A stretch of 64,000 nt of DNA from the NCBI GenBank assembly GCA_024690665.1, contig JAILOU010000007.1, positions 18,595-82,594 on the forward strand, given 5' to 3'. Shown in pieces: positions 18,224 through 41,846 of the stretch (position 1 is the stretch's first letter; every line of letters starts with the position of its first letter). The notes beneath the pieces are model-generated. The model saw nothing but the letters and a program-made list of their open reading frames with translations. It did not search any database and was not told the origin of the DNA. Position numbers and translations under genes: made by a program. This stretch comes from Eubacterium sp. GTDB lineage: Bacteria > Bacillota > Clostridia > Lachnospirales > Lachnospiraceae.

Positions 18224-20020
18224 CTATAAATTCGTTACAATATGTTCAATCATTTCGCTGATAACGTTGATGTACCGGCTGGCTGCGTTATACGCATTTT
18301 GGTATTTGATCATCTTAGTCAGCTCTTCATCGGAAGAAACACCGAGCACGGAACTTCTGGAAGTCGTAAGAGCTTCTGTTGTGCTCTCTAAGTTTTCAAC
18401 CGTTGTCTTAAATACATTACCGTTTGTTCCAAGTTCTCCGACCATCTGCTCGTAATACTCTGCAAATGTCCAGGTTCCTCCTATTGTCGGATTCAGCTGT
18501 AAGTCAGCGCTTTCCCACATGCTTGAAAGTGCTTCGCCAAGTTCGTAGCTGACTTCCCCGTTTTGTTCTAAGTGCGGAAGCATGCTCGAATCCTGCTGAA
18601 TCGTTTCATTAATGGAAAGACTCTTGATGGTATACATCATGCTGGTATCCGTTAAGTCTTCTTCGTTATATAGATAATAGGTGTTACCCGATGAATCGGT
18701 CACCTCTGTGTATCTATCGCATCCTGTTCTGGTAAACAATTCCTGCGGCGGCAATTCTCCGTCACTTCCCACGCAACAGTTATCAGTGTCTAATACTCTT
18801 GTTGAATCGGTAATGGTATAACTGTTTCCATCTGCATCCGTCACAATTGTTCCGGTGGTAAGTCCTGCGTCGTTAGCTGTTGTCAGCGGGCTTAACAGAT
18901 CGTTAATCGTTGTTACGATGGAATGAATCAGTGTGTCAAATTCTGCCTGTGTATTTAAACAAACCGATGCGCCCGTAAGCTCATCATATTCGCTTTCTGT
19001 CTTGTAATCATCTTCTGTCAGTTCACTAAAATACTCTGCTGTTGTATTGACCAGGTCATACATATCACGGTAATCTGCCACGCTGTCGCCTCTTGCAAGT
19101 AAGATTCCCTTTAGCTTACCGATATCGGAATTATACGCTGAGGAAATCTCGGCTTCTAAGTCAAACACTTCGTAGTTGTTACCATCGCTGTCTTGTCCAA
19201 GCTGCGGCCAGATTGGAGTTGCGAATCCGGTTGACTTATCGTATTCAACGTCCATCTCATAGACCATTGCTTCATTGATAAATTCCACACCTTCAATGCT
19301 TACCTTCACAATCCCCTGCGTCGTCTCCTTGTAAGAGATGTTGCACAGTTCAGCAAGTTCATCAAGCGCCAGGTCTCTTTCATCTCGAAGTGAAGATGCT
19401 GTTTCCACTCCGCCTGCTTCAATCTTTTGAATCTGAATATTTAATTCGTAAATGGTATTGCCCAGTTCATTAATCTTATCAACCGCATCCTCGATTTGGT
19501 CATTTAACTGTGTCTGATAGGTATTAATGCTTTCATATACCGCCTGAGCTCTTGTAATAAAAAGAGATGCCTTTTGGAGAACAAGATTCTGATTTACGCT
19601 GCTGGACGGGTCCTTTGCCAGTTCCTGAAAAGCAACCCAGAGACTTTCGTCATCACTACTTAAGATATTCTGAAATGACTCTCCGTCAAGTTCTTGCAGG
19701 ATATCCTCAATTTCTGTAGTTGCGTCGTAAGATGCAGAATAAAATTCATATCGTCCAACTTCCTGACGATATGACTGATCCAAAAAGACATCACGTGTAT
19801 GAAGAACGTCTGAGATCGAAACTCCCAGACCATTCGTCTGCTTACTGATCGCTGCCGACACCCCGGAAGCGATATAAGTTTTGTCTGCAAACAGCACCTG
19901 CTGACGTACATAACCGGTTGTATCTACATTCGTCAAGTTGTTCGCTGTTATGTTCATTGCATTTTGACTATTTTGTAATCCGGATGCTCCCACCCAGAGA
20001 CTTCCCATACTGTTTGCCAT
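18224..20020 (-). CDS. flgK: Flagellar hook-associated protein FlgK (paralogue B)
   Basis: SLWVGASGLQNSQNAMNITANNLTNVDTTGYVRQQVLFADKTY ... YQNAYNAASRYINVISEMIEHIVTNL. Confidence 0.9.
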   Translation of the reverse strand: MANSMGSLWVGASGLQNSQNAMNITANNLTNVDTTGYVRQQVLFADKTYIASGVSAAISKQTNGLGVSISDVLHTRDVFLDQSYRQEVGRYEFYSASYDATTEIEDILQELDGESFQNILSSDDESLWVAFQELAKDPSSSVNQNLVLQKASLFITRAQAVYESINTYQTQLNDQIEDAVDKINELGNTIYELNIQIQKIEAGGVETASSLRDERDLALDELAELCNISYKETTQGIVKVSIEGVEFINEAMVYEMDVEYDKSTGFATPIWPQLGQDSDGNNYEVFDLEAEISSAYNSDIGKLKGILLARGDSVADYRDMYDLVNTTAEYFSELTEDDYKTESEYDELTGASVCLNTQAEFDTLIHSIVTTINDLLSPLTTANDAGLTTGTIVTDADGNSYTITDSTRVLDTDNCCVGSDGELPPQELFTRTGCDRYTEVTDSSGNTYYLYNEEDLTDTSMMYTIKSLSINETIQQDSSMLPHLEQNGEVSYELGEALSSMWESADLQLNPTIGGTWTFAEYYEQMVGELGTNGNVFKTTVENLESTTEALTTSRSSVLGVSSDEELTKMIKYQNAYNAASRYINVISEMIEHIVTNL

Positions 20021-24922: not shown

Positions 24923-26371
24923 CTATCTGATGTGCAGCGCATCTGACATTACACATTTTCTCTTTCTGCAAAATGATCTTGCACTGGTAAGACCCTCACC
25001 TGTAGGTCCTGCAATTGTAAATGTCGTATGACCTTCTCCTCCCACTCCGATTCCGGCATAGGATGGTGCATTCTTCACAAAGATTGTGGTTTCTAACAAT
25101 TTCGCCATCTTCGTAAGCTTGTCAACATTCTTTGAATGCATCATGGCGGTATGACGGTTACCATGCTCTGCAACGTATGCATCCTCAATTGCCTCATCAA
25201 CATCATGGCATCTGACAATCGGAAGAATCGGCATCATCATCTCTTCTGTTACCAGATGATGATTTTTATTTACTTCCATAATAATGACGCGGATATCATC
25301 TCCAACGGTAATTCCAAGTTTACCAAGGATATGTTTTGCGCTCTTACCAACGAATTCTACCTTAGGAGATCCTTTTTCATTCGTTACAAGTGCGTCGAGC
25401 TGCTCAATCATAGCAGGATCTTTCATCTCATAGGCACCATTTTGCTTCATGCAGTGAATGAGATAATCACAGATCTGATCCACGGCAAATACTTCTTTTT
25501 CTGCAATACAAGGTACATTGTTGTCAAATGAGCATCCATCTACGATATCTTTTGCAGCCTGCTCAATATCTGCCGTTTCGTCTACTACAACCGGTGGATT
25601 ACCGGCTCCGGCGCCGATTGCCTTCTTACCGGTTGACATAACTTTTCGTACTATCGATGGGCCTCCGGTTGCTACCAACATTCTAATCTTTGGATGTTCA
25701 CACATCGCATTGGTATTCTCAATCGATGGCTCCTTAACCGTGGTAATCATATTCTTTGGTGCCCCAACCTCTTCTAATGCCTTGTTTAGGATAGTCACAA
25801 GAAGGTGTGAAACTTTTGTAGCTCTTGGATGCGGACTAAAGACAACGGTGTTACCACCGGCAATCATGGAAATAGAATTACCGATAATCGTCTCTGTTGG
25901 GTTCGTTGTCGGTGTGATTGCTCCAATTACACCAAAGGCACAATACTCAATCAGCGTAAGTCCGTTATCTCCTGTCTGTGCTTCCGTAATCAGATCCTCT
26001 GTTCCCGGTGTCTTAATTGCAGCAAGTCTGTTCTTAATCAGCTTATGCTCGTACTTTCCAATCTCTGTTTCTTCCACTGACAAAAGAGAAATCATCTCAA
26101 GATTCTCACGATTTAATACGGCATCCCGAATGGCCTGAACGTATTTTTCCCGTTCTTCCATCGTAGAATGCAGCAACTGTTTTTGCGCAATAACCGAAGC
26201 TTCAATGGCTCCGTCCATCGTATCAAACACACCGTAATTACCGGTCTGCGACATGCACGGCGCTACGGCCACATTTCCCTCCCGTGACACATCTACAATT
26301 GCCTTTCTTACCATCTGTTCAATTACATTTACATCGATATCCATAGCTTTTCTTTCCTTCCTTATCCTCAT
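24923..26371 (-). CDS. CoA-acylating propionaldehyde dehydrogenase (PduP/EutE-like)
   Basis: EYCAFGVIGAITPTTNPTETIIGNSISMIAGGNTVVFSPHP; catalytic Cys context SFDNNVPCIAEKEVFAVD; start likely at internal MDIDVN. Confidence 0.93.
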   Translation of the reverse strand: MRIRKERKAMDIDVNVIEQMVRKAIVDVSREGNVAVAPCMSQTGNYGVFDTMDGAIEASVIAQKQLLHSTMEEREKYVQAIRDAVLNRENLEMISLLSVEETEIGKYEHKLIKNRLAAIKTPGTEDLITEAQTGDNGLTLIEYCAFGVIGAITPTTNPTETIIGNSISMIAGGNTVVFSPHPRATKVSHLLVTILNKALEEVGAPKNMITTVKEPSIENTNAMCEHPKIRMLVATGGPSIVRKVMSTGKKAIGAGAGNPPVVVDETADIEQAAKDIVDGCSFDNNVPCIAEKEVFAVDQICDYLIHCMKQNGAYEMKDPAMIEQLDALVTNEKGSPKVEFVGKSAKHILGKLGITVGDDIRVIIMEVNKNHHLVTEEMMMPILPIVRCHDVDEAIEDAYVAEHGNRHTAMMHSKNVDKLTKMAKLLETTIFVKNAPSYAGIGVGGEGHTTFTIAGPTGEGLTSARSFCRKRKCVMSDALHIR

Positions 26372-26374
26372 TTT

Positions 26375-27190
26375 TTATCTGCTACTGTTCATCGCAATTC
26401 CAAGTGGTGTTACCAAAAGCGGTTGGTTTGACTTAATCGTTGGAATCCCCAGTTCCTTTTCAAACACCTGCGGGAACTCGCTAAAGCTACACGCACCCCC
26501 AACTACATACACTGCCGGCACATCAAAATCCTTTAGAAAATTCTTAACGATGGATGCCATCTTCTGGATGACCGGTTTGACAATCGGGAAGATCTCCGCT
26601 TCCTTTGTCACATCTTTTTTTAATGCCTCTGCCTCTTCCATCGTGATGTCATAATATCCGGCCAGCACAAGCGTCATATGCGTCCCCCCGGTTGGTTCAT
26701 CTGCTGTGTAGATGACCTCACCATCTTTCATAATGCTTATGCCTGTCGTGCCACCGCCAACATCTACAACGGCTCCATCCATGATATCAAGCACTGTCGC
26801 AGCTGCTGTTGGTTCGTCCACGATATTAATCACATCAAATCCTGCGCCTTCCACAACATTTGATATGGCCTTTACGCTTCCTGATACCACTCCCGGCGGT
26901 ATCGCACAGGAGGCCTCGGTAAGCTCTGTTCCAAGACGCCCCTCTATCTGTTCTTTTAATCCCTTTACAACACGAATGGCTCCCATATAATCAACGACAA
27001 TCCCGTCTTTTACCACCGATGATGGGAACATGGCTCCTGCCACCGGCTCATTTTGTTCATCTACCACTGCCAGTACGATATTGGCCGTTCCAAGATCGAC
27101 GCCGACTTTGAGCGTTCCTTCATGGGAATTGACATTTTCTGTTTCTACCAGCGTTGCAAAGGAATCCAACACACCTTTTTCTATAATCAC
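26375..27190 (-). CDS. eutJ: EutJ-like actin/HSP70-family BMC protein
   Basis: LKVGVDLGTANIVLAVVDEQNEPVAGAMFPSSVVKDGIVVDYMGAIRVVKGLKEQIE ... VVDVGGGTTGISIMKDGEVIY. Confidence 0.9.
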   Translation of the reverse strand: MIIEKGVLDSFATLVETENVNSHEGTLKVGVDLGTANIVLAVVDEQNEPVAGAMFPSSVVKDGIVVDYMGAIRVVKGLKEQIEGRLGTELTEASCAIPPGVVSGSVKAISNVVEGAGFDVINIVDEPTAAATVLDIMDGAVVDVGGGTTGISIMKDGEVIYTADEPTGGTHMTLVLAGYYDITMEEAEALKKDVTKEAEIFPIVKPVIQKMASIVKNFLKDFDVPAVYVVGGACSFSEFPQVFEKELGIPTIKSNQPLLVTPLGIAMNSSR

Positions 27191-27204: not shown

Positions 27205-27855
27205 TTATCTTTTAATCTTTACGTAGTCCTTATTCTTGAGCATACAGGCATTTGCTTCATCGATATCTACATGCATTTCCAATGCAAATTTATCCGATAC
27301 CCTTACCAGAACATTACCAAGAACGCCTGCTCGTTCCCCATAGGTCTCAACTTCTACTATGTCTTTATCTTTTAATCCGATCTTTTGCGCCTGCTCAGGT
27401 GTCATATGAATATGTCTGAGTGCGACAATCGTTCCGCGCGGCATTTCAACCATTCCATTTGGTCCAACCAGCGTTACACCCGGAGTTCCATCAAGCTGAC
27501 CGGACTCTTTGACCGGAGCCTTTACCCCCAGTTGGAAACCGTCGGTAAGTGAGATTTCAACCTGACTTTGCGGACGAACCGGACCTAATATCCTTACTTT
27601 TTGAAATTCCCCCTTCGGTCCTCTGACCGTCACTGTTTCATTTGCTGCGAACTGCCCCGGCTGACCAAGGTCAGCCTTTTTTGTCAGTTCATATCCTTTG
27701 CCGTACAAGATATCCAGATCCTGCCTGGATACATGTACATGTCGATTGGATACCCCAATCGGAATCTTCAGCTCGTCGTAATCTTGAAGCTGTTCCATTA
27801 CATTTTCTACAATTTTTTTAATCAGCTGTTCCTGACTCATTGCTTCCGCTTCCAT
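27205..27855 (-). CDS. pduL: Phosphate propanoyltransferase PduL
   Basis: IPIGVSNRHVHVSRQDLDILYGKGYELTKKADLGQPGQFAANETV ... ALRHIHMTPEQA. Confidence 0.95.
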   Translation of the reverse strand: MEAEAMSQEQLIKKIVENVMEQLQDYDELKIPIGVSNRHVHVSRQDLDILYGKGYELTKKADLGQPGQFAANETVTVRGPKGEFQKVRILGPVRPQSQVEISLTDGFQLGVKAPVKESGQLDGTPGVTLVGPNGMVEMPRGTIVALRHIHMTPEQAQKIGLKDKDIVEVETYGERAGVLGNVLVRVSDKFALEMHVDIDEANACMLKNKDYVKIKR

Positions 27856-29058
27856 CTACACCCCTTCACTTTCTCGTATAAATCTTTCATATTGTGCTGA
27901 TACTGCTTTTTGTCTAAGTAGTTCTACCATATCCAGTTTTTCCCAGCCAAAGCCCTCGTCTTCTCTTCCAAAATGTCCATAGGCCGCTGTCTTTTGATAT
28001 TGCGGTCTTCTAAGATCCAGCTTTCGTATCATTCCGGCAACCGAGAAATCAAACAGTTCTTCGACAATCCTTTTTATAATTCGAATATCCACCTGTTCAC
28101 TTCCAAATGTTTCGATATTCACATTCTCCGGCTGAATCTGACCAATGGCGTATGCAATCGCCACTTCACACCGTTTGGCAAGCCCTGCTGCCACAATGTT
28201 CTTCGCAACGTACCTGGCCATGTAAGCCGCACTTCTGTCTACCTTGGTCGGATCTTTTCCGGAGAAAGCTCCACCGCCATGTCTTGCGACACTGCCATAA
28301 GTGTCTACCATAATTTTTCTTCCGGTAACGCCGGTATCTCCGGCCGGTCCACCAATTACAAATCTTCCGGTAGGATTAATCTGAATTCTGGTATGTTCGA
28401 TATTAAATTGTCCTTTCAGTACGGGATGAATGACTTCATCCATGAGCGTACTTTTTAAATAATCATAATGAATTGAGGGAAAATGCTGGGCAGAAAGAAC
28501 GATATCCTCCAGCGAGAATGGATTATCGTCGTCATTGTATTTTACCGTTACTTGGGCTTTTCCATCCGGATACAGCCACGGTAGAATTCCTTCTTTTCTT
28601 ACTTCAGTCAGCCGCTTTACGAGACTGTGGGCCAACTCAATGGTAATCGGCATATACGTGGGGGTTTCATTTGTTGCGTATCCATACATGATACCCTGGT
28701 CCCCACCGCCGATTTGCTCATCTGTCGTTGTTTTTTGAACGCCCCTTGAGATATCGGCTGACTGTTTGTTTATATTTGTTAAGACTATACACTGTGCGGC
28801 ATCAATACCGCTTTCTTCTGAAATGTAACCAACATCCTTTATCACATTTCTCGCAATAGCCGGTATGTCCAGCCTTGCGGTGGTGGAAATCTCTCCTGCG
28901 ATCATAACGGTATTTTTCGATACCATGGTTTCCACCGCAACATGAGCTTTTGGATCTTGCGACAAGGCCGAATCGAGAATACCATCTGAAATCTGATCGC
29001 AGAGCTTATCAGGATGGCCTTCCGTAACAGATTCGGACGTTACATACTGTTCACGCAT
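27856..29058 (-). CDS. metK: S-adenosylmethionine synthetase within the BMC operon
   Basis: YVTSESVTEGHPDKLCDQISDGILDSAL, GGGDQGIMYGYATNET, GRFVIGGPAGDTGVTGRKIMVDTYG, GGGAFSGKDPTKVDRSAAY. Confidence 0.96.
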   Translation of the reverse strand: MREQYVTSESVTEGHPDKLCDQISDGILDSALSQDPKAHVAVETMVSKNTVMIAGEISTTARLDIPAIARNVIKDVGYISEESGIDAAQCIVLTNINKQSADISRGVQKTTTDEQIGGGDQGIMYGYATNETPTYMPITIELAHSLVKRLTEVRKEGILPWLYPDGKAQVTVKYNDDDNPFSLEDIVLSAQHFPSIHYDYLKSTLMDEVIHPVLKGQFNIEHTRIQINPTGRFVIGGPAGDTGVTGRKIMVDTYGSVARHGGGAFSGKDPTKVDRSAAYMARYVAKNIVAAGLAKRCEVAIAYAIGQIQPENVNIETFGSEQVDIRIIKRIVEELFDFSVAGMIRKLDLRRPQYQKTAAYGHFGREDEGFGWEKLDMVELLRQKAVSAQYERFIRESEGV

Positions 29059-29062
29059 CTCA

Positions 29063-30085
29063 TCACCCGCCTGTTCCGCTTGATGCTATTACTGACTTTT
29101 TATATTGTTGTACTGTCATCTTTTCATACTTTTTAAATACTTTGCTAAAATAACTGCTTTCGTTGTATCCCAGTTTAAATGCAACTTCTGCAACACTGTC
29201 ATTCGTAAGATAAAAATACCCTTTGGCAAGATGTATCTTTCTCATATGCAGATACTCCATCACACTGATATTAAACTGGTCTTTAAATATTCTACTTAAA
29301 TATCCCTGCGAGATGGCACAGTTGTCAATAATCTGACTTAGCCCAATCTCCTCATGAATACTATTCTCAATATAGGCAAATACATTTTCCAAAACCTGGT
29401 ATCTTCGAATGCTGTTTTGCTCAAACACGTAATTGATTACTTTAAACAGCCACATCTCTCCAATCATCGGTTCTGTGATATGCAATTCGTTAATTGCAAA
29501 CAAGCCTTCAATGTCCTTTGCCTGACCTTCCATGTGTCCGGCAGCCACAACCAGTCGCTGCCCGAGGAATCTAAAGTTCGTTGCCAGTTTTACACTGTCC
29601 TGACCGTATTTGTTATAGAAATCCTCAATCAGACTGTGAAGTCCATAATATGCTTTTTTGAAGTCCCGTCCGGCAACCATCTCTTCTAAAACATTCAGAT
29701 AATGTCCGGCCTTTCCTTCCTGTTCAATTCTGTAGTTTTTGAGAACATCGCTTAGAATTCTCATCGATAGCGGCTTTAACAGGTATTCATTCACCTTTAG
29801 TTTTACCGCTTCTTTGGCAAGTTCAAAGTTGTTATATGCACTTATGATGTAGATAATGGTTTCATCATCTTTTTCTCTGATCTGCCGAATGGCTTCTATC
29901 CCGGTCATCACCGGCATCACGATGTCCATAAAGATAATGTCCGGTTTACACTGTTCATACTCTTCAAGTGCATTCTTTCCATTGGTTGCTTCTGCGCACA
30001 CCTCAAAGCCTTCTAACTTGCCTAGCATAACCTTAAGAGCCTTGCGCATAATCTGGTCATCATCAACTATTAGAATCCGATACAT
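29063..30085 (-). CDS. Response regulator with AraC-type HTH
   Basis: Receiver MYRILIVDDDQIMRKALKVML ... DIIFMDIVMPVMTGIEAI; C-terminal AraC HTH YLSRIFKDQFNISVMEYLHMRKIHLAKGYF. Confidence 0.93.
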   Translation of the reverse strand: MYRILIVDDDQIMRKALKVMLGKLEGFEVCAEATNGKNALEEYEQCKPDIIFMDIVMPVMTGIEAIRQIREKDDETIIYIISAYNNFELAKEAVKLKVNEYLLKPLSMRILSDVLKNYRIEQEGKAGHYLNVLEEMVAGRDFKKAYYGLHSLIEDFYNKYGQDSVKLATNFRFLGQRLVVAAGHMEGQAKDIEGLFAINELHITEPMIGEMWLFKVINYVFEQNSIRRYQVLENVFAYIENSIHEEIGLSQIIDNCAISQGYLSRIFKDQFNISVMEYLHMRKIHLAKGYFYLTNDSVAEVAFKLGYNESSYFSKVFKKYEKMTVQQYKKSVIASSGTGG

Positions 30086-31403
30086 CGGCGTCTATCCTTT
30101 CATCAAAATACTTGGGATATCTTATGCAGGCTTTCCTGCCTTTTCCCTTCACAACTTCCGTGGTAATATCATACTCTTTTCCATAAAGAGTTCTGATTCT
30201 TCTACTGACAAGTTCCACACCTTGTTGTATTCCATCGCCGCTTCCGGTTTCATCAAAGGAACTGTAATACTTTTCGATATAATCATTACCCAGTCCCGGT
30301 CCATCATCTTCGACATACAAGACGACATCGTCTCCTACATATTCTCCGACGATTCGGATGTGGCCTCCGTCTTCGTTCATGCAGATGCCATGCTCCACCG
30401 CCTGCTGCACAAATGGCTGCAGGATGAGTGCCGGTACTCTCTGCATTCGCATCTTCTCCGGAATCTCGATTGTGTATTCTAATTTCTCTCCATGGCGGAT
30501 CTTTTGAATCTGCAGATATCGCTCTACATTGTCTATCTCATCCATCATGTAAGAAAAACTGTTTGTATTGAGCATTGACTTAATATACTCCGCCAACACA
30601 ACCAATGCCTCGTTGGTTTCGGTTGCACCTTCAATCATTGCCAGATTCGCAATTGATGTAACGGTATTGATTACAAAGTGCGGATTTTTTTCATAGCTCA
30701 TGGAAGAAATCTTCAATTCCTTAATCTTATTTTGATATTTCAGATTGCGATTTTCCTGCTTTAGCGTTTCAATCTTTCCGTGATCGGTTTTATGACGCTC
30801 GAGTTTGGAGATCTCACTTTCTGTCATCTGCCGGATAATCATCGCCGCCAGTTCCGAAGCATTACAAAACTGTTCATATGTAAGTTCCGTCGCCTCGTCC
30901 TTTAGTTCAATATCAATCCCGTTTTGCTCTAACAATTCTGTTCGATCAAAAATCGTTTCCAGTCTTGCAATATCCTTTGGTGCATCCTGACACTTAATCT
31001 GTCCACCGATGAATCCCCCCAGATAATGACCTTCCACAATCAGCGGAATTGCCACTTCCAATAATCCACATGGACAAAAGTATATACACGACTTTTGTGT
31101 GGTTGCTGCCTGTATGGCACCATACGCATCTGACGACCAGCATCCTTGTTCCGTGATCCTGTTTTCTCTGACACACTGACAGAATCTTGTAAAGGAAATC
31201 GATTTTGTCACAGGCTCTCCTTTATAATCGACTGTGACGAAAGCCAACCCCGTAACTTTCGAAATCTTTTCTTGAATTTCTTCCAGTTTTTCCTTTCCAA
31301 ATACATGCACGATATCAAAGTGATTAAGATCAACATTGACCTGCTTTTCATCAGACCCCGACTCTACTTTACTGCTACTTCCTAAAGAATCCCTATGTCC
31401 CAT
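30063..31403 (-). CDS. Histidine kinase with PocR ligand-binding domain
   Basis: CQCVRENRITEQGCWSSDAYGAIQAATTQKSCIYFCPCGLLEVAIPLIVEGHYLGGFIGGQI (PocR type), then HFVINTVTSIANLAMIEGATE (His_kinase) and HATPase VLYVEDDGPGLG. Confidence 0.88.
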   Translation of the reverse strand: MGHRDSLGSSSKVESGSDEKQVNVDLNHFDIVHVFGKEKLEEIQEKISKVTGLAFVTVDYKGEPVTKSISFTRFCQCVRENRITEQGCWSSDAYGAIQAATTQKSCIYFCPCGLLEVAIPLIVEGHYLGGFIGGQIKCQDAPKDIARLETIFDRTELLEQNGIDIELKDEATELTYEQFCNASELAAMIIRQMTESEISKLERHKTDHGKIETLKQENRNLKYQNKIKELKISSMSYEKNPHFVINTVTSIANLAMIEGATETNEALVVLAEYIKSMLNTNSFSYMMDEIDNVERYLQIQKIRHGEKLEYTIEIPEKMRMQRVPALILQPFVQQAVEHGICMNEDGGHIRIVGEYVGDDVVLYVEDDGPGLGNDYIEKYYSSFDETGSGDGIQQGVELVSRRIRTLYGKEYDITTEVVKGKGRKACIRYPKYFDERIDADVSDSNS

Positions 31404-31477: not shown

Positions 31478-32593
31478 TTATAACAGACCGAAAAGTACAT
31501 TTACAATCTCTGTCTTACTAAAGATATATTTTGCAGTTTCCGTACATCGGTCATTCATTGCATTTTGGTAAATTATATCTATTTTGTCTCTAAGATCTTG
31601 CTCTGTCACATTACACTCTCGCAATGTAAGTGGCATCGCCATCTCTTTTTGACACTTTGTAATTTCAGAACATAACATCCCCACAGCATCTTCATCACTC
31701 ATTTCAAGAGATGCAAGATTTAGTTTTCTTGCTAAAATCGCATAACGATGCTTCATTTCACTTGTTTCAGAATTCTTCTTGATTACGGCATTTAAAATTA
31801 CCGCATTCGCCAGTCCATGTGGCAAATGAAAGACGCTGCCAAGCTGATGTGCAATGGAGTGGTTCATCCCCAGACCGGCAATGTTAAATGCGCTGCCAGC
31901 CAGGTTGGATGCCTCCTGCATCATGCTTCTCGCTTTCAAATGCGTCCCTTCGTGGTAACAGACCTTCAGATAGCGAAACACAAGCTCCACCGCCTTTTCT
32001 GCCAATGCATCGGAATACGTATTCGCATTCGTCGATACATATGCCTCTATTGCGTGTGTCAGCACATCCATTCCCGTATTCGCGGTCACAGCCGGTGGCA
32101 CAGAGACAGTAAGCGTGGGACACAAAATCACTTCGTCCGGTAGGATGTTATCATCTACAACCGGATATTTAACCTGTGTCTGCTTATCCGAAATCACCGT
32201 AACAGATGTGACCTCCGAACCCGTTCCGCTTGTCGTTGGAATTGCAATAAATCGAAGATTGCCTTCATACTTTCCGAGTCTCGAAAAATAGATGACTCCT
32301 TTTGCGGTGTCGATTGCCGATCCGCCTCCGTAGGCGATGATGACATCCGGACGCACACTGTGTATCAGTGCGACCCCTTTTGCAATTACTTCAAGTGGCG
32401 GATCCGGAACTACATCACCACAGACAACCACTTTATTTGAGGGATCAAGATGATCGGTTATCTGCTTTAGACTTCCATTGTCCACTAAAAAAGCATCTGC
32501 TATTAACCATATTGTTTTGTCTTCAAATTTTTCAAGTCGCTTCAGGGAATCCTCCCCTGAAACAACCTTTGTTTTTATATATACCTGGTTCAT
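31478..32593 (-). CDS. Iron-containing alcohol dehydrogenase (PduQ-like)
   Basis: YGGGSAIDTAKGVIYF, IPTTSGTGSEVTSVTVISD, GMNHSIAHQLGSVFHLPHGLANA; start at MNQVYIKTK. Confidence 0.92.
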   Translation of the reverse strand: MNQVYIKTKVVSGEDSLKRLEKFEDKTIWLIADAFLVDNGSLKQITDHLDPSNKVVVCGDVVPDPPLEVIAKGVALIHSVRPDVIIAYGGGSAIDTAKGVIYFSRLGKYEGNLRFIAIPTTSGTGSEVTSVTVISDKQTQVKYPVVDDNILPDEVILCPTLTVSVPPAVTANTGMDVLTHAIEAYVSTNANTYSDALAEKAVELVFRYLKVCYHEGTHLKARSMMQEASNLAGSAFNIAGLGMNHSIAHQLGSVFHLPHGLANAVILNAVIKKNSETSEMKHRYAILARKLNLASLEMSDEDAVGMLCSEITKCQKEMAMPLTLRECNVTEQDLRDKIDIIYQNAMNDRCTETAKYIFSKTEIVNVLFGLL

Positions 32594-32601
32594 GTCTTCC
32601 C

Positions 32602-33918
32602 CTAGCGAATAGAAAATCCGTTCGTCAGCATACATTTTCTTCTTCTTGTATAATGTCTGGCGCTCACAGTTCCCTCTCCGGTAACATTGGCTACCATCTG
32701 GGTAAATGGAGTGTGATTCCCCAAAATCCCTACTCCTTCAAGTGCCGGTCCATTCTTGACAAACACCGCTGTCTGAAGTTTTTTCGCCACTTCATTCAGT
32801 CGGTCTATGGAGGTTGAATGTACGGCTGCCGTGTGTTTATAACCCTGTTCAATGACAAGCATCCTCTCAAGTCCTTCTTCGTAGCTTTCTGCCCCTACAA
32901 GTGGAACGATTGGTGCCGGCACCTCCTGTGTTACAAATCTGTGGTATTCTGTTGTCTTTACCACAATCAGCTTCACTCTTCCTTCATAATAAATGCCTGC
33001 TGTCTGCAAAATGGTTTCTGCGGATTTTCCTATCCATTTTCTACTTACCGATCCGTCTTCGCGAAAGATTAGACCGGCAAGTTTTTCTATTTCATCGGAA
33101 CTTTGTATGATAAGCGCGCCGTTTTTTTCCAGTTCTGATTCCAACTCTTTTTCGATGTCATCTACTGCAACGAGCGCCTTTTCCGATGTATGCATGACAT
33201 TGTAATCAAACGAAGCGCTTAAAACGATGTCATGTGCCGCCTTTTTTAAATCTGCTGTTTCATCAATCAGTGCCACGCAGTTTGCGCCGCCTTCGCCAAT
33301 CACTTTTTTTGCACAGGCAAAGGACCCTTTTAGCGCTTCTTCTCCCACATTACATACCACCATATCCACGTCCGGATGATGCATAATCTCCTTCGCATTC
33401 GCAATATTACTTACATCATACGAAACTACAAGATTGTCAATTCCACACGTCTCCACGATGGCTCGATCAATCAGCGAGGTCACATAATTCGATGTCTTTA
33501 CAGCTCTTGGATTCGGACAAACAACCACTGCATTTCCTGCCGCAATCATGCCTATGACATGATTGATGATAGAAGCTGCAGGACTACCTGCCGGTTCCAT
33601 GGTACAGATAATGCCAAATGCGCTTAGTTCATACAGCGTCATTCCGCGATCACCTGTCTTTACTTCTGTCACGAGATCTTCTGCTGCCGGCGTTCTTTCA
33701 ATTGCGGCTATTAGCTTTTGTTTTTTATCCGGATAGTTTCCCATCCCGGTTTCTTCGACTGCCAGCATGGCCATGATCTCTACATGGGACATCAGTTTTT
33801 TTCGTATTGCATCCACAATTTCCTCTCGGTCTTCGAGCGATAGTTTTTCGTATCTCTCATGTGCTTTTTTAACCAGGCACATCGCATCATTGATGGATGA
33901 AAATATTCCAGCTTCCAT
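32602..33918 (-). CDS. Acylating aldehyde dehydrogenase homologue lacking catalytic Cys (second ALDH paralogue)
   Basis: Strong resemblance to the 24923-26371 ORF but active-site segment reads SFDYNVMHTSEKALVAVD instead of SFDNNVPCIAEKEVFAVD. Confidence 0.88.
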   Translation of the reverse strand: MEAGIFSSINDAMCLVKKAHERYEKLSLEDREEIVDAIRKKLMSHVEIMAMLAVEETGMGNYPDKKQKLIAAIERTPAAEDLVTEVKTGDRGMTLYELSAFGIICTMEPAGSPAASIINHVIGMIAAGNAVVVCPNPRAVKTSNYVTSLIDRAIVETCGIDNLVVSYDVSNIANAKEIMHHPDVDMVVCNVGEEALKGSFACAKKVIGEGGANCVALIDETADLKKAAHDIVLSASFDYNVMHTSEKALVAVDDIEKELESELEKNGALIIQSSDEIEKLAGLIFREDGSVSRKWIGKSAETILQTAGIYYEGRVKLIVVKTTEYHRFVTQEVPAPIVPLVGAESYEEGLERMLVIEQGYKHTAAVHSTSIDRLNEVAKKLQTAVFVKNGPALEGVGILGNHTPFTQMVANVTGEGTVSARHYTRRRKCMLTNGFSIR

Positions 33919-33942: not shown

Positions 33943-34215
33943 TTATGCTCCGGTAGTATCAATGCTGTCGATGATTCCTATCACCGCCATATCGATTGTT
34001 TTTCCTTTTTTTGTTTCTTCTACTCGTACGGATGAACCGGTTGCACAAAGTACAAATTCACCAATTCCGCAGCCAACATAATCGACTGCCACAGCTTCCG
34101 GTTCAATGTATTCCCCTTCAGCATCTACGCGGCGAACGATCATTAACTTGGTGCCTTCAAGTGTTTCATCCTTGCGTGTAGCAACAACATTTCCGATTAC
34201 TTTTGCCAAAATCAT
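33943..34215 (-). CDS. EutN/CcmL-type pentameric BMC vertex protein
   Basis: MILAKVIGNVVATRKDETLEGTKLMIVRRVD ... AVDYVGCGIGEFVLCATGSSVR. Confidence 0.95.
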   Translation of the reverse strand: MILAKVIGNVVATRKDETLEGTKLMIVRRVDAEGEYIEPEAVAVDYVGCGIGEFVLCATGSSVRVEETKKGKTIDMAVIGIIDSIDTTGA

Positions 34216-34218
34216 ACG

Positions 34219-34782
34219 CTATTTCTTTCCTTTCGGTGGCGTCTTTGCCTTCGAGGTCTTACCTTTTGCTTTCGGTTCCTTTTTTGGCGGTTCCGTTTTC
34301 TTCGGCTCTTCTGCCTTCTTTGGCTCTTCTGCCTTCTTTGGCTCCTCTGCCTTCTTTGGCTCCTCTGCCTTCTTCGGCTCCTCTGCCTTCTTCGGCTCTT
34401 CCACCTTCAATGGTACTACCGCCTTCTTTGGCTCTTCTACCTTCTTTGGCGCTTCCGGCTTCTTAGGCTCTTTTGCCTTCTGATTCACTGACTGATACGG
34501 AACCGTTGGATTGCAAAAAACTTTCGCCATACTTTCTGCCGGCCTTGCAATCACAGATGCGGATACGAAATTGCCATATTTAATTGCCGCCGCCCTGGCA
34601 GCATCAACTCCGGCCTTTACTGCTCCGACATCGCCTACAATCTTCACGGTCATATAACCGCTTCCCCGGCTGTTTTCCAGCTCTAAGATCTTCACATTGG
34701 CTGCCTTGACCATAACGTCTGCAACCTCAATCGCTGTTGAGATTCCTCGTGTCTCAATAAGCCCTAACGCTTCTTGCATCAT
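34219..34782 (-). CDS. BMC shell protein with long repetitive Lys/Glu/Pro-rich C-terminal tail
   Basis: BMC domain [62 protein letters not shown], then repeated EEPKKA units. Confidence 0.92.
   Translation of the reverse strand: MMQEALGLIETRGISTAIEVADVMVKAANVKILELENSRGSGYMTVKIVGDVGAVKAGVDAARAAAIKYGNFVSASVIARPAESMAKVFCNPTVPYQSVNQKAKEPKKPEAPKKVEEPKKAVVPLKVEEPKKAEEPKKAEEPKKAEEPKKAEEPKKAEEPKKTEPPKKEPKAKGKTSKAKTPPKGKK
34295..34480 (-). repeat. 18-bp in-frame tandem repeats encoding EEPKKA-type units
   Basis: Direct read: repeated gccttctttggctcytct units, degenerate at both ends. Confidence 0.93.
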
Positions 34783-34783
34783 C

Positions 34784-35317
34784 TCACCTTCCTTCCGTAT
34801 CTAACTCAATTTCAATTCCATATTCCAAGATTGTTCTGATATAGCCCATTATTGTTCGTTGGTACGCTTCCGGTTCCTTTCCGGTAAATGGCTCAAGAGC
34901 CCCTCGCGCTACCACAACATCGATTCCCTCTTCCATTGCCCTTGTGATTATCTTCGTTTCGGGTATATCCGATATCCCAAGTGCACACTTTGCCAGTACC
35001 GGCCTGGGAAAGAGCGGGAATACTATCTTGTCATATAAAAACGGTTCACGAAATAACTTTTGCGGACTTACAATCCGCTTGCACAGATTGCAAACTTCTT
35101 TTACAAATTCCTCGCAGTCTAGTTGCTGCTCCACGGCGACAAGCGTAATCTCGCATGCCCTTTCTGCCCTCAGGGCTCTTAATGTTTTTACACATCTTTT
35201 CTTATCACTTCCGGAGTACACAACTACTACTTTCTCTTCTTGAGGATTCATAAGATCCACAGTCAGCTCCATTACCCGTTCTATTAATGATCGTAATTGT
35301 TTTTCACTTATTTCCAT
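34784..35317 (-). CDS. BMC-locus flavoprotein-like protein
   Basis: N-terminal helix MEISEKQLRSLIERVMELT, then VVVVYSGSDKKRCVKTLRALRAERACEITLVAVEQQ ... DKIVFPLFPRPVLAKCALGISDIPETKIITRAMEEGIDVVVARG. Confidence 0.55.
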   Translation of the reverse strand: MEISEKQLRSLIERVMELTVDLMNPQEEKVVVVYSGSDKKRCVKTLRALRAERACEITLVAVEQQLDCEEFVKEVCNLCKRIVSPQKLFREPFLYDKIVFPLFPRPVLAKCALGISDIPETKIITRAMEEGIDVVVARGALEPFTGKEPEAYQRTIMGYIRTILEYGIEIELDTEGR

Positions 35318-35427: not shown

Positions 35428-35712
35428 TTAATCAACTAATGACTTCGGAATAATCTTCTCTGTATCCATGTGTGGACGAGGAATAACGTGAATTGATACA
35501 ACCTCTCCAACTGCTTTTGCTGCAGCTGCGCCTGCATCTGTTGCTGCTTTTACAGCTCCTACATCACCTCTGACCATGACTGTTACAAGTCCTGATCCAA
35601 TCTTCTCATAACCGCACAGAGAAACATTTGCTGCTTTTACCATCGCATCTGCTGCCTCAATTGCGCCTACAAGTCCTTTTGTTTCGACCATACCTAATGC
35701 ATCTGCATTCAT
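35428..35712 (-). CDS. BMC hexameric shell protein (PduA/EutM-like)
   Basis: [61 protein letters not shown]. Confidence 0.96.
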
Positions 35713-35736: not shown

Positions 35737-36546
35737 TTAAATATATGGTTGTGTTGTTGACTCCGGCTCACCGCCAAGGGAACCAAGAAGTTTTTTGCCA
35801 ACTTCGATTGCCGCTCTAACGGCCTGACGAACAGCACCGGAATCACCTGTAAATGTCAAAATACACTCGTTCGAATAACTTGTTCCGCCATTACCCGGAG
35901 AAGAATATCCGATTACTTCAACATTCGCTGCTTTTACAGCCGTATCTGCAAGAATTGCTCCAATCGCTGCAGGTCCTGCACAGGTCATTCCCCATGCTCT
36001 GCCGTGTGTTGCGCCCATTGCCTTTTCCAGACAATAACTTGCTCTTGCCGTATACTGAAACTCAAGATGTCCTGCTTCATTTCCATATACATCTCCAAAG
36101 TATTTTGGAAGTACGTTAAGCGCAATCTCAACTGCTCTTCTCGCATCTGATACATCTTCTGCACCGATGATAATCAAAGAACCATGTCCTGCTCCGCCCT
36201 TTGTATCTCTTGGAAGTTCCACAGAAATCACCTGTGTATTCGTTGCTTTTACTGCTTCGTCCACAGCCATAATCTGTGGGCCTGCTCCTGTTCGACCTCC
36301 GATAATACCAATCGAACGGTATTTACCAAGCTTCATTACTTCTGTAAGCATTGGGTCAACACTTGCGATGACAAGCCCGATCGTATCGCCAATGGCTGTT
36401 CCCACAAACTCTGTAAGTCCCACATTGTCCACGTTGCATGCATCACATGCCGGCGCGGTTGATGATGCGCTTGCAGATGCAGTTTGAGTAGCTGCAAGTT
36501 CATCAGAAACCTGCTTCATTACTTTTTCAATTAACTGCTGATCCAT
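35737..36546 (-). CDS. BMC trimeric shell protein (PduB-like)
   Basis: MDQQLIEKVMKQVSDEL N-terminal helix; TEFVGTAIGDTIGLVIASVDP and GYSSPGNGGTSYSNECILTFTGDSGAVRQAV. Confidence 0.93.
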   Translation of the reverse strand: MDQQLIEKVMKQVSDELAATQTASASASSTAPACDACNVDNVGLTEFVGTAIGDTIGLVIASVDPMLTEVMKLGKYRSIGIIGGRTGAGPQIMAVDEAVKATNTQVISVELPRDTKGGAGHGSLIIIGAEDVSDARRAVEIALNVLPKYFGDVYGNEAGHLEFQYTARASYCLEKAMGATHGRAWGMTCAGPAAIGAILADTAVKAANVEVIGYSSPGNGGTSYSNECILTFTGDSGAVRQAVRAAIEVGKKLLGSLGGEPESTTQPYI

Positions 36547-36569: not shown

Positions 36570-37490
36570 TTAACCAATTCGACAGTTTACTCCGCACTGT
36601 TCCACTACCTCTTTTAGGGCGTTGATGTCATCTTTTTCAAGCATCTTAACCCCCTGAAGGCTATAATCCCTGCCCAGCATCTTGTATTTGTTTTCCCCAA
36701 AGGAATGATAGGGCAATAGATTAACTCCTTTTAAATGGTTTTGGTCTAGTGTCTTTGCAAATTCTGCAATCTGTAAAATATCTTCTTTCTTATCATTACA
36801 TCCCGGAATAACCGGTACTCTTACCATGATATCTGTAATCTGAGAGATAAGCTTTACGCCCGGAAGAATCTTGTCATTGGAAACCCCGGTATACTGCTCA
36901 TGCACTTGTGCATTCATGCTTTTCACATCCGTCAACGCCAGATCTACATGTGGCAGTACCTCTCGAATCACTTCTTCACTCGCACATGCCGTTGTTTCTA
37001 TTGCAGTGTTCCAGCCTTGTGCATGTGCCGCCTTTAACAGTTCTTTTGCAAATTCATGCTGTACAAGCGGCTCTCCTCCGGATATGGTCAGTCCTCCTCC
37101 GGAACGCCTGTAATTGGTTCCGTCTTTTTTTAGCTCCTTCACAACTTCCTGCACGCTCATTTTTTTACCTTTCATGATCAATGCACCAACCGGGCACACT
37201 AAAGAACATTCTCCGCAGCCGACACACTTGTTATGGTCAATCAGCGCTTTGTTGTCAGAACTAATTGCTCCTTGTTTGCAAACGGAAAGACAGGCACCAC
37301 AGTGGATACATTCAAGTTCATTGAACATCACCACCGGTCTTAATAACTGTGATTCCGGATTTGAACACCATATACATCGCAAAGGACACCCATTTAAAAA
37401 CACAATCGTACGGATTCCGGGACCATCATTGACAGAGAATCTCTGTATATCAAATACAAGTCCTTCTAATGCGTAATTAATCTGGTCCAT
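36570..37490 (-). CDS. Glycyl-radical enzyme activating enzyme (radical SAM)
   Basis: FSVNDGPGIRTIVFLNGCPLRCIWCSNPES; two ferredoxin clusters CIHCGACLSVCKQGA and CVGCGECSLVCPVGA. Confidence 0.96.
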   Translation of the reverse strand: MDQINYALEGLVFDIQRFSVNDGPGIRTIVFLNGCPLRCIWCSNPESQLLRPVVMFNELECIHCGACLSVCKQGAISSDNKALIDHNKCVGCGECSLVCPVGALIMKGKKMSVQEVVKELKKDGTNYRRSGGGLTISGGEPLVQHEFAKELLKAAHAQGWNTAIETTACASEEVIREVLPHVDLALTDVKSMNAQVHEQYTGVSNDKILPGVKLISQITDIMVRVPVIPGCNDKKEDILQIAEFAKTLDQNHLKGVNLLPYHSFGENKYKMLGRDYSLQGVKMLEKDDINALKEVVEQCGVNCRIG

Positions 37491-37507: not shown

Positions 37508-40108
37508 CTAGCATCCTCCTGCGCTAAACTCATGCTCGGTACGCTCGATAATGTTATCCTGTACCTCTTTTGCCAGGGTGACAAAGTGAGCACTGTATCC
37601 GGCAACTCGAACTACCAGGTCTTTGTGAAGTTCCGGATGCTGCTGTGCATCAATCAGGGTCTGACGATCGATGACATTGAACTGTACGTGCATTCCCTTA
37701 TGGTCAAAGTAGCTACGTACAACGGATGCGAAATTCATAAGTCCCTCATCTCCTGCAACTGCGGATGGGGTAAACTTCTGATTGTAAAGCGTTCCGTTTG
37801 AGAAATACTCATGGTCTAACTTCGCAACAGAATTGGTTGCTGCTGTAGGGCCACTGACATCCTTACCTGCTCTTGGTGATACACCGTCTGCCAAAGGTGT
37901 TGTTGCAAGTCGTCCATCCGGAAGTGCTGCAACATCCTTACCAAAGAGTACATTGGCAGATACCGGATAGCATCCTGCCTGGAACTGACCGCCTCTTGGG
38001 TTGGTATATTTTTCTACCTCTGCACTGTAGATGCGGGCAACTCTTGCGGATACATAATCCGTCTCATCAATATCGTTACCGTACCATTCTGTCTTCTCCA
38101 TCAGGCGCTTGATTGCAAAATAATCTGCTCCGCCGCCGCATGAAGTGCATTCATTCATATTCTGGTTAACAGCGCTTGTTACCGTTGCCAAATCAACAGA
38201 ACCGTTGCTGCTAAGAATCTTCTTCACGATCTCATAGACTTTTTGTTCATCGCTCTGCGTAGCCTGTGTTGTTGCCGGCATAACACCGCCATTCATTCTT
38301 GCTGCGTCAAATTCTCTTTCTGCCTGTGTAGAGCTGTCTACCGGATATCCAAAGTTGTGATCAAGCGCATCCTTTAACTGTGCAACTGTAATCTCCTTAT
38401 TTTCGAAGATATGCTTTTGCATTGCGTATGCGGAATCACCAACGTCTACTACACCAAATGCCTGCGGACCGGTAAAGTTATAGATTGCTCCACCTTCTTC
38501 CACTGTCATGCCTCGTCCGATACAATCATCAACAAGTGCTGACAGGAATGGAAGCTGGTCTCTTTCCATATGTGCAAGGTCTACTGCATTGTCTGCTTCC
38601 ACCAAATGGTATACGAAGTATTCCATCTGCTTTTTAAATGCTGTAAAGAAATCTTCGATGTCTGTCCAGTCTTTCATCTCACCGGTTACCGGGCCAAGCT
38701 GCTTATTGCCGACTCTACCGTTGTTCATGGTGATTTCCATTACCTTTGCCACATTAAAGAATGCTGCATCATGCCATCCTTCTGTCTTGTGCGGACACTG
38801 TGGTTCCACGCAGCCGATGATACAATAGTTTCTTGCATCCTCAAGCTTGACGCCGCGGTTGACAAGGGATGGGATAATAACCTCATCGTTGTACATTGCC
38901 GGCACGCCAAGTCCAAGTCTTGCAAGCTCGCATGCGCGATATAAGAACTCGTCCGGTGTATTTTCATGTACTCGGATGGAGAACGAAGGTGCCGGGAGAC
39001 GAACATGGGCACAAGCTTCCATACACATATAGGAAATATCATTGGTAATATCTCTACCGAGCTCATCCTGACCACCAACTCCCAGATTCTGGAAGATTGC
39101 ATATCCTGCAAATGCCTGATCGGAGATGGCATCACGAGTCTTATTCAAATCGTTTAACTTTACCCAGATACAGTCAATCAGTTCCTGAGCGAATTCTTTT
39201 GTAATGTTTTTATCATCTCTAAAATACGGATACATATAAGTATCAAATCTACCCGGTGAAATAGAATGTCCGGATGATTCAATCTGAAGCATCAACTGTA
39301 CAAACCAGAACGCCTGGCATGCTTCGTAAAAATTCGTTGCTCCATGTTCCGGTACTCGCTCACAGTTCGCTGCAATCTGAAGAAGCTCCTGCTTTCTTGT
39401 AGGATTCATCTCTGTTTGTGCCATCTGTCTTGCCTTTTCTGCATAACGATGAGCAAATTTGATTGCCGCCGTGTAAGTAATGATCACAGCGTTATAGAAC
39501 TGCTGTTTTTTCATATACGCAGGATCCATGCGGTCCATCTTCTCCATTGCGCATACAACTTCTTCTATGACACCGCGAAATCCTTTTTGAATAATCTTTC
39601 CATAGTCAACGCATACATGGCCAACACCGCCGTAGTAGTAATTACCAACGGTAAACACACCATTGTTCTGACAATCCTTTGTTTCCTCAGACATATAAGA
39701 AGTTGCCAGATCGCTGACGGTCTTTCCCGGCCAGTAAAGAAATGCCTCGTGAAGCTTAGCCGCAACATCTTTTGGAATCTTAAATGGATCGGCCATTCTT
39801 GTTTCCATTGTGTCGAACTCTGCTTCCACCCAGTCATAGGAATATTCCGGTGTAATCTGACAAGATCTTGGATGAACTGTAAGTGATCCGACGATTAATT
39901 CATCATCTCGAATCGTTACCGGTAATTCCGTAAATAACTTCTCTGCTACTTTTGCGCGGCGCATAACATTAGGAAGACCCTCTGTTTCCTTATACGCCTC
40001 CGTTGCGAGAACCGCTCTTTCCGCTTCTACTTCCGGAAATGCGGTTACGATAACATTGGCCAGACGCTTAACTCGGTCTGTCGGTTCTGTAAAACCTTTT
40101 GCTATCAT
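37508..40108 (-). CDS. Glycyl radical enzyme, B12-independent diol (propanediol/glycerol) dehydratase
   Basis: Cys motif NYCIIGCVEPQCPHKTEGWHDAAFFN; GGVGHVCVDYGK; glycyl radical motif LVVRVAGYSAHFVTL; WHD and GH context suggest diol/glycerol dehydratase over choline lyase. Confidence 0.88.
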   Translation of the reverse strand: MIAKGFTEPTDRVKRLANVIVTAFPEVEAERAVLATEAYKETEGLPNVMRRAKVAEKLFTELPVTIRDDELIVGSLTVHPRSCQITPEYSYDWVEAEFDTMETRMADPFKIPKDVAAKLHEAFLYWPGKTVSDLATSYMSEETKDCQNNGVFTVGNYYYGGVGHVCVDYGKIIQKGFRGVIEEVVCAMEKMDRMDPAYMKKQQFYNAVIITYTAAIKFAHRYAEKARQMAQTEMNPTRKQELLQIAANCERVPEHGATNFYEACQAFWFVQLMLQIESSGHSISPGRFDTYMYPYFRDDKNITKEFAQELIDCIWVKLNDLNKTRDAISDQAFAGYAIFQNLGVGGQDELGRDITNDISYMCMEACAHVRLPAPSFSIRVHENTPDEFLYRACELARLGLGVPAMYNDEVIIPSLVNRGVKLEDARNYCIIGCVEPQCPHKTEGWHDAAFFNVAKVMEITMNNGRVGNKQLGPVTGEMKDWTDIEDFFTAFKKQMEYFVYHLVEADNAVDLAHMERDQLPFLSALVDDCIGRGMTVEEGGAIYNFTGPQAFGVVDVGDSAYAMQKHIFENKEITVAQLKDALDHNFGYPVDSSTQAEREFDAARMNGGVMPATTQATQSDEQKVYEIVKKILSSNGSVDLATVTSAVNQNMNECTSCGGGADYFAIKRLMEKTEWYGNDIDETDYVSARVARIYSAEVEKYTNPRGGQFQAGCYPVSANVLFGKDVAALPDGRLATTPLADGVSPRAGKDVSGPTAATNSVAKLDHEYFSNGTLYNQKFTPSAVAGDEGLMNFASVVRSYFDHKGMHVQFNVIDRQTLIDAQQHPELHKDLVVRVAGYSAHFVTLAKEVQDNIIERTEHEFSAGGC

Positions 40109-41117: not shown

Positions 41118-41846
41118 TTATCCTAATGCCGCCATACATGCATTTATGGCAAATACCGCCAGAACACCTCCGACTGTACTTCCCACCAGGTTGACAACAA
41201 GCTGATATCCCCAATCTACTTTTTCTCCATTCTTTTGTGGAATTGGGATCAGTGCAAACCAGATACTACTGAATACAGAACGCATCGCATTCATAGAGAA
41301 CCCGGTCAGGTCAAGAGTAAGCGATAACAAGAATACAGCGGCGAATCCGATTGCACCAAGCTGCAGCGCAACGGTCTTTCCGTCCATAACTTTTCCTGCT
41401 CCCAGTACCAAAAACAAAAACACAAATGTTGCACATACTTCCTGGAAGAAGTTCAGCACCATATGTTTTTCTACCGGATATGCTGAGAAAATACCTCTCT
41501 TAGAAATTCCCTCACTTGCTTTAAAACTGTCATGGAAATTAAGAACAGTAAGTCCTACTGCCGATCCTGCTGCCAAAAACTCCATCAGCAGATACATACA
41601 TGCCTGCGCTCCGGTAATCCCTCCGGAAAACAGCATTCCAAATACAACCCCCGGATTCAGAAGTGCCGGTCCTCCAAGTACAACTGCGATACATAGTCCA
41701 AATCCAACTGACAAAGACCATGCAAATGACAGTTCCACGAAGTTAAGTTTGCCGATCAGCGTTTTCTTTAATGTAATATTGCTCATGTAACAATATCCAC
41801 CAAGCAAAAATACCAGGCTACCGACAAATTCCGATAAATAAATCAT
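41118..41846 (-). CDS. Divergent MIP-family channel (PduF/GlpF-like)
   Basis: Six-TM pattern with two half-repeats; NPA positions read LLNPGVVFGML and LTGFSMNAMRSVFSSIW; BMC context. Confidence 0.65.
   Translation of the reverse strand: MIYLSEFVGSLVFLLGGYCYMSNITLKKTLIGKLNFVELSFAWSLSVGFGLCIAVVLGGPALLNPGVVFGMLFSGGITGAQACMYLLMEFLAAGSAVGLTVLNFHDSFKASEGISKRGIFSAYPVEKHMVLNFFQEVCATFVFLFLVLGAGKVMDGKTVALQLGAIGFAAVFLLSLTLDLTGFSMNAMRSVFSSIWFALIPIPQKNGEKVDWGYQLVVNLVGSTVGGVLAVFAINACMAALG

Follow-up and report, generated by a model that had tools for sequence, protein, structure and literature searches.

A second aldehyde dehydrogenase with histidine at the catalytic cysteine position in a GRM3-like compartment locus: a candidate pseudoenzyme

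Why would a compartment locus that encodes a catalytically complete aldehyde dehydrogenase (AldDH) keep a second AldDH gene in which the codon for the catalytic cysteine now encodes histidine? The question is raised by the 64,000-nucleotide stretch of DNA analysed here (the window), where a compartment operon runs entirely on the minus strand from the gene of a MIP channel (41846) down to that of a PduT-like BMC-T (23000). The genes that concern us are the following.

41118-41846, minus strand: aquaporin-family (MIP) channel, head of the compartment operon
37508-40108, minus strand: glycyl radical enzyme (GRE) of the diol/glycerol-dehydratase type, with an insertion of ~69 aa (residues 590-658)
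36570-37490, minus strand: GRE activase with a ferredoxin-like domain
35737-36546, minus strand: PduB-type BMC-T shell protein
35428-35712, minus strand: BMC-H shell protein (family from sequence)
34784-35317, minus strand: 177-aa protein
34219-34782, minus strand: BMC-H with a long K/P/E-rich repetitive tail
33943-34215, minus strand: BMC-P (EutN-like) vertex protein, 24 bp upstream of AldDH2 (family from sequence)
32602-33918, minus strand: AldDH2, predicted type II (PduP-like) AldDH fold, 438 aa, without encapsulation peptide, catalytic Cys replaced by His
31478-32593, minus strand: iron-type alcohol dehydrogenase (ADH)
29063-31403, minus strand: PocR-type sensor kinase and AraC-type response regulator
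27856-29058, minus strand: S-adenosylmethionine synthetase (MetK), as listed for GRM3 loci (PMC4207490; family from sequence)
27205-27855, minus strand: PduL-type phosphotransacylase
26375-27190, minus strand: EutJ
24923-26371, minus strand: AldDH1, catalytically complete PduP-like AldDH with an N-terminal extension (putative encapsulation peptide)

The diol-dehydratase-type GRE with its insertion, the ferredoxin-type activase, the S-adenosylmethionine synthetase, EutJ and the PocR two-component pair match the published description of GRM3 loci (PMC4207490, PMC6325248), and the locus is therefore regarded as GRM3-like. The GRE scores 518.7 against a cut-off of 1050 for the choline lyase CutC and is closest to solved diol/glycerol-type dehydratases. 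Judging from homology, the substrate would be 1,2-propanediol, and the MIP channel possibly serves diol uptake. The 177-aa protein has no Pfam or NCBIfam match; it occupies the same position in the mapped AldDH2 loci except those of Pseudoramibacter porci and G886, and is perhaps the flavoprotein mentioned for GRM3 loci. A metK gene is present in all AldDH2 loci mapped, which fits the need of a radical-SAM activase. The tail of the BMC-H at 34219-34782 contains EEPKKA units, and the length of the orthologous ORFs, taken from the first start codon, varies widely, between about 144 and 306 aa (L040, L038, L039, L101). Elsewhere in the window, two adjacent ORFs on the minus strand (16305-18206 and 18224-20020; 633 and 598 aa) resemble the flagellar hook-associated protein FlgK.

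The AldDH2 ORF runs from an ATG start to a TAG stop and lies, as the earlier note had described, intact between the ADH and vertex-protein genes. The likely ADH start, an ATG at 32593, is 8 nt behind the AldDH2 stop, a spacing that suggests translational coupling. Codon 243 (window 33192-33190) reads CAT within SFDYNVMHTSEKA, and the equivalent segment of AldDH1, SFDNNVPCIAEKE, keeps the Cys. In alignments, His243 stands opposite Cys269 of Cphy1178 (4c3s) and the acylated Cys of 5jfn; no Cys of AldDH2 is aligned at the nucleophile site, in agreement with the substitution that had been noticed from the sequence. Among 92 distinct AldDH ORFs compared, all type II AldDHs have this Cys except those of four genomes of the AldDH2 clade, three of which are assemblies independent of that of the window (97-99% completeness). 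A gene-finding artefact, a frameshift and an assembly or sequencing error are ruled out by the intact ORF in four genomes. The substitution is not private to the window genome either, as it is shared by four genomes in two genera, with no signs of the decay that the earlier note had considered. A change from TGY to CAT takes two nucleotide changes, which rules out a single-nucleotide origin.

The earlier note had also stated that AldDH2 lacks the N-terminal extension of the first AldDH, and this is indeed the case: the chain starts at the catalytic domain, and its open frame of just 446 codons leaves no room upstream. A hidden N-terminal peptide is ruled out by open frames of 445-452 codons across the AldDH2s of the family. 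Homology to the curated PduP-like model NF011927 is full-length (462.9 bits; cut-off 403), and the tree places AldDH2 in the type II trunk. Meanwhile, the catalytic Cys, the oxyanion Asn and the NAD/CoA loop of type II BMC acylating AldDHs are replaced by His, Ser and CNVG, and the N-terminal encapsulation peptide of these enzymes is absent from the 438-aa chain. AldDH2 thus appears to be a type II BMC acylating AldDH by descent and probably not a functional AldDH, and it constitutes an annotation trap, because the curated family model calls it an aldehyde dehydrogenase with a score above the cut-off.

The positions that bear on activity are given below by AldDH2 codon, with Cphy1178 numbering for the equivalents.

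33583-33585, minus strand: codon 112, AGT: Ser instead of the oxyanion-hole Asn (N138), which G293 and G627 retain
33337-33354, minus strand: CNVGEE, replacing the NAD/CoA loop ATGGPG (Cphy1178 215-220)
33292-33294, minus strand: codon 209, GAA: Glu in place of A235; hydrolytic ALDHs have their general base here (PMC4762007)
33190-33192, minus strand: codon 243, CAT: His instead of the nucleophile Cys269
32923-32925, minus strand: codon 332, Glu kept (E357)
32833-32835, minus strand: codon 362, CAC, catalytic-base His kept (H387)

Further changes in the window AldDH2 affect T216-G217 (Asn-Val), P240 (Cys), T134 (Glu) and F431/T432 (Gln/Met). In the aldehyde pocket of the His-type copies, residue 432 is Met in all and residue 431 is Met or Gln; R318, which contacts the CoA phosphate, is K or R; and H387 and E357 are kept in every copy. 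In Cphy1178, the adenine and pyrophosphate moieties of NAD and CoA are held by the loop 215-223, whose counterpart in AldDH2 is now acidic and Gly-poor, with the Thr-Gly gone. Within the type II alignment, Glu at A235 is confined to the His-type copies, all four of which carry it; the oxyanion Asn has been lost in two of the four, belonging to one of the two genera only.

To place these changes against the background of the family, we used the 48 residues that are constant in 27 Cys-bearing type II AldDHs, with residue roles taken from the literature (PMC4762007, PMC5311937). The equivalents of Cys269, Asn138, Thr216, Gly217, Ala235 and Pro240 are invariant in these 27 relatives and changed in the window AldDH2. 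Each of the three distinct His-type lineages loses 6-7 of the 48 invariants, with 8 lost in all, and the sites lost in at least one lineage comprise 5 of 7 literature-defined active or cofactor sites versus 3 of the 41 other invariants (Fisher p = 0.0006). By the same count, single Cys-type AldDH2 lineages lose none when close and 2-6 when deep, mostly away from the active and cofactor sites. The C269A and H387A mutants of Cphy1178 are inactive (PMC4762007), as are Cys-to-Ser/Ala mutants (PMC5311937). The earlier note had proposed an inactive ALDH, and the case now extends beyond the evidence given there to the Cys, the Asn and the cofactor loop, all of which are changed, with H362 and E332 kept; AldDH2 has in all probability lost its activity.

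Whole-genome searches turned up AldDH2 orthologues in a small number of genera (5 of 334 sampled within the family of the window). The His type is present in the window, in G103 of the same genus (74% identity) and in G293 and G627 of another genus (62-63%), and all four copies are intact. Cys-bearing orthologues, which the earlier note had missed, occupy the same kind of locus. Those with a complete site are found in G265, G964/S2R_St_11 and G119 and, branching more deeply, in P. porci, G886 and G832. In four species of one genus (G388, G482, G545, G603), the Cys is kept, N138 is replaced by Ser and the loop GG by GC; these copies may represent a half-way stage of active-site loss. They are located at 1498-2814 in L047-L050 and at 5150-6463 in L105. 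The window, G103, G293, G627, S2R, G265, G119, G603, G388 and G832 all have the order GRE, activase, PduB, BMC-H, 177-aa protein, tailed BMC-H, BMC-P, AldDH2, after which ADH comes in seven of the ten loci and MetK in the other three. In all His-type loci AldDH2 lies tightly between BMC-P and ADH, and its operon position and ribosome-binding spacing are kept in these genomes. A peptide-bearing AldDH1 is present in every AldDH2 genome checked, mostly in the same gene cluster; in P. porci it lies on the same contig about 15 kb off, and in G886 on other contigs.

Secondary AldDH genes have been reported in the GRM3 loci of C. cf. saccharolyticum and C. beijerinckii (Axen 2014, PMC4207490), and the Cys-type AldDH2s may be of the same kind. 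However, the reported secondary AldDHs have the Cys, being retained in the tree of that paper, whereas the window AldDH2 has His. No description of an inactive AldDH in GRM3 loci was found in the literature covered, which does not include the principal GRM-locus paper, Zarzycki 2015 (AEM 81:8315). A published precedent that the earlier note had not mentioned exists for GRM1: inactive second AldDHs of GRE compartments were described for GRM1 in 2014 (PMC4207490) and flagged in 2021 for GRM1A/1B only (Sutter 2021, PMC8217296). In GRM1 (choline) loci as in the window, a GRE-compartment locus carries an AldDH with the catalytic Cys replaced and an intact AldDH alongside, and a scaffold or regulator role has already been proposed for the GRM1 protein. 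However, the GRM1 copies carry Ser or Pro and belong to the type I (EutE-like) trunk, whereas AldDH2 carries His and belongs to the type II trunk; and the GRM1 copy of the mapped G388 locus lies directly upstream of CutC, whereas the AldDH2 locus is propanediol-type and has the gene between those of BMC-P and ADH. This GRM1 locus of G388, which carries a Cys-to-Ser AldDH (L094 2584-4083), occurs in addition to the AldDH2 of that genome.

A phylogenetic tree was constructed with IQ-TREE under a site-mixture model. The AldDH2 group (support 100/99) and the His type within it (100/100) are well supported, and the AldDH1s of the same loci form a separate clade. The inactive GRM1 AldDHs from three loci (Cys to Ser twice, Pro once) fall in the other AldDH trunk, and the AU test rejects a clade that unites them with the His type (p = 3e-149). 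The tree and the AU test rule out orthology of AldDH2 to the GRM1 inactive copies; AldDH2 has His and not Ser or Pro, lacks common descent with those copies and is not in a CutC locus. Because the trunks differ and a common clade is rejected, inactive AldDHs arose independently in GRM1 and here. Bootstrap support favours nesting of the His type among Cys-type AldDH2s, and the alternative that it is sister to all of them is not rejected (AU p = 0.125). Since all outgroups carry Cys, with character states read from label counts on the tree, the Cys would have been lost under either topology.

The earlier note had proposed to look for purifying selection across related loci, and it is evident in the comparison of the window with G103, to which dN/dS is limited, dS being saturated in most pairs. 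Here AldDH2 has a dN/dS of 0.120 (NG86, 95% 0.077-0.172) or 0.087 (ML), i.e. 0.09-0.12, with no indel in 438 codons. For AldDH1 of the same pair the values are 0.032 (NG86, 0.018-0.049) and 0.013 (ML), so that purifying selection on AldDH2 is 4-7 times weaker than on its operon partner. When neutral drift was simulated to 0.1 changes per site, just 2 of 300 frames were still open; neutral drift would therefore have broken the frame, and AldDH2 is under persisting constraint. The AldDH2/AldDH1 distance ratio, from branch-length sums on the tree, is about 5 for window-G103 and 3.7 for window-G293; Cys-type pairs give about 1.6, and a pair with the N138S genus gives 2. The low dN/dS together with the higher ratios in His-type pairs indicates that AldDH2 is constrained, yet less so since the loss of the site. 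Three-way identity in the oligomerisation hairpin and the C-terminus is 0.83 and 0.87 for the His type (Cys types, 0.83 and 0.93), and in the catalytic domain 0.48 versus 0.57. The hairpin and the C-terminal strand are thus kept as in active copies or nearly so, and the catalytic domain and the cofactor loop are not.

The AlphaFold2 model of the AldDH2 monomer (pLDDT 91, pTM 0.90, whole chain) predicts an intact ALDH fold, in line with the earlier expectation. Its best PDB match is the GRM3 propionaldehyde dehydrogenase of R. palustris 5jfn, a tetramer (TM 0.95, Z 56, rmsd 2.1 over 437 residues). The fold is predicted to be that of the R. palustris structures 5jfl/5jfm/5jfn and of Cphy1178 4c3s over the whole chain (TM 0.94-0.95, 37-38% identity); however, the R. 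palustris enzyme and Cphy1178 are active, carry an encapsulation peptide at the N-terminus and possess the Cys, the Asn and the NAD/CoA loop, whereas AldDH2 lacks the Cys, the Asn, the loop and the peptide.

On balance we lean towards AldDH2 being a pseudoenzyme that has lost activity, kept the fold and become a structural subunit acting with AldDH1 and/or ADH. This reading draws on what the sequences establish (orthology, residue losses, selection, synteny, peptide absence and the predicted monomer fold), and it is favoured because the losses concentrate at the active site while the oligomerisation segments, fold and operon position are kept. AldDH2 would descend from a second type II acylating AldDH that was catalytically complete and belonged to GRM3-like loci. 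Within the lineage comprising the two genera, CoA-acylating activity may have been lost through C269H, A235E and loss of the cofactor loop, the Asn disappearing in one genus only, and the ALDH fold would then have been held by purifying selection. The peptide-less subunit could assemble with the peptide-bearing AldDH1, possibly giving fewer peptides per tetramer, and/or could dock the adjacent peptide-less ADH to the AldDH core. A single study with synthetic tetramers showed that cargo condensation in cells depends strongly on how many peptides each oligomer carries (PMC12339742), and AldDH probably brings peptide-less ADH into the compartment (PMC6325248). The proposed peptide dilution draws on the former study and on analogy, and mixed oligomers, ADH docking and piggy-back encapsulation are all conjectural. 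However, conservation of the oligomerisation segments suits homotetramers equally, and the fixed pocket residues E235 and H269 with the kept H387 and E357 could mean a new pocket function. The main rival reading, an unlikely one, is that the cleft, with Glu209, His243, His362 and Glu332, has been rebuilt for metal or ligand binding or new catalysis. C269H, which took two changes, and A235E, which took one, are fixed in all four His-type genomes, and the lost sites 138, 216, 217 and 240 drift; E134, H146, E219 and M432, probably in or near the former pocket, are further fixed residues specific to the His clade. However, with 55% of all sites identical among the three independent His-type lineages, two fixed residues prove little. 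The narrower proposal that C269H and A235E are coupled and create, together with H387 and E357, a pocket of two His and two Glu for a metal, a new ligand or new chemistry is improbable; if true, the compartment would gain a component not known from any metabolosome.

The faster amino-acid evolution of AldDH2 than of AldDH1 and Cys-type AldDH2, and its presence in just a few genera of the family, could also point to a redundant, functionless duplicate under relaxed selection and heading for loss. We consider this rather unlikely: the dN/dS value is well under 1, no indel or stop has appeared in four genomes from two genera at near-saturated synonymous divergence, the losses cluster on the active site and are not evenly spread, and the operon position and ribosome-binding spacing are kept. 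The earlier note had offered a structural or scaffolding role, which stands as the best remaining inference, next to a regulatory one through binding of aldehyde, CoA or NAD, which does not fare as well. The kept H362 and E332 and the K or R at the CoA-phosphate contact R318 would suit an inactive AldDH that retains binding of NAD, CoA or aldehyde and serves as a regulatory sensor of the pathway; however, the adenine/pyrophosphate loop is without its Thr-Gly and has become acidic, Glu has replaced T134, and F431/T432 are changed, making such a sensor very unlikely. It is hardly credible that AldDH2 is still an acylating or hydrolytic aldehyde dehydrogenase using the His or an alternative Cys as nucleophile. 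The Glu at the general-base position of hydrolytic ALDHs (PMC4762007) would fit hydrolysis; against this, C269A of the homologue Cphy1178 is dead, Cys-to-Ser/Ala mutants are inactive, the oxyanion Asn is missing from half of the copies and the NAD loop is destroyed.

As far as the literature covered shows, the new elements are the GRM3-like locus, the type II trunk, Cys-to-His together with Ala-to-Glu, the independent origin, and the existence of living active and half-way orthologues. GRE-type organelles have turned a second AldDH into a probable non-enzyme at least twice, independently and from different enzyme trunks; a dead AldDH subunit would thus seem to be of use to such loci. In addition, active, seemingly half-way (Cys kept, Asn lost, in one genus) and apparently dead forms of AldDH2 coexist in the same kind of locus. 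Because all three survive, what is gained when this protein ceases to be an enzyme would be directly testable, step by step.
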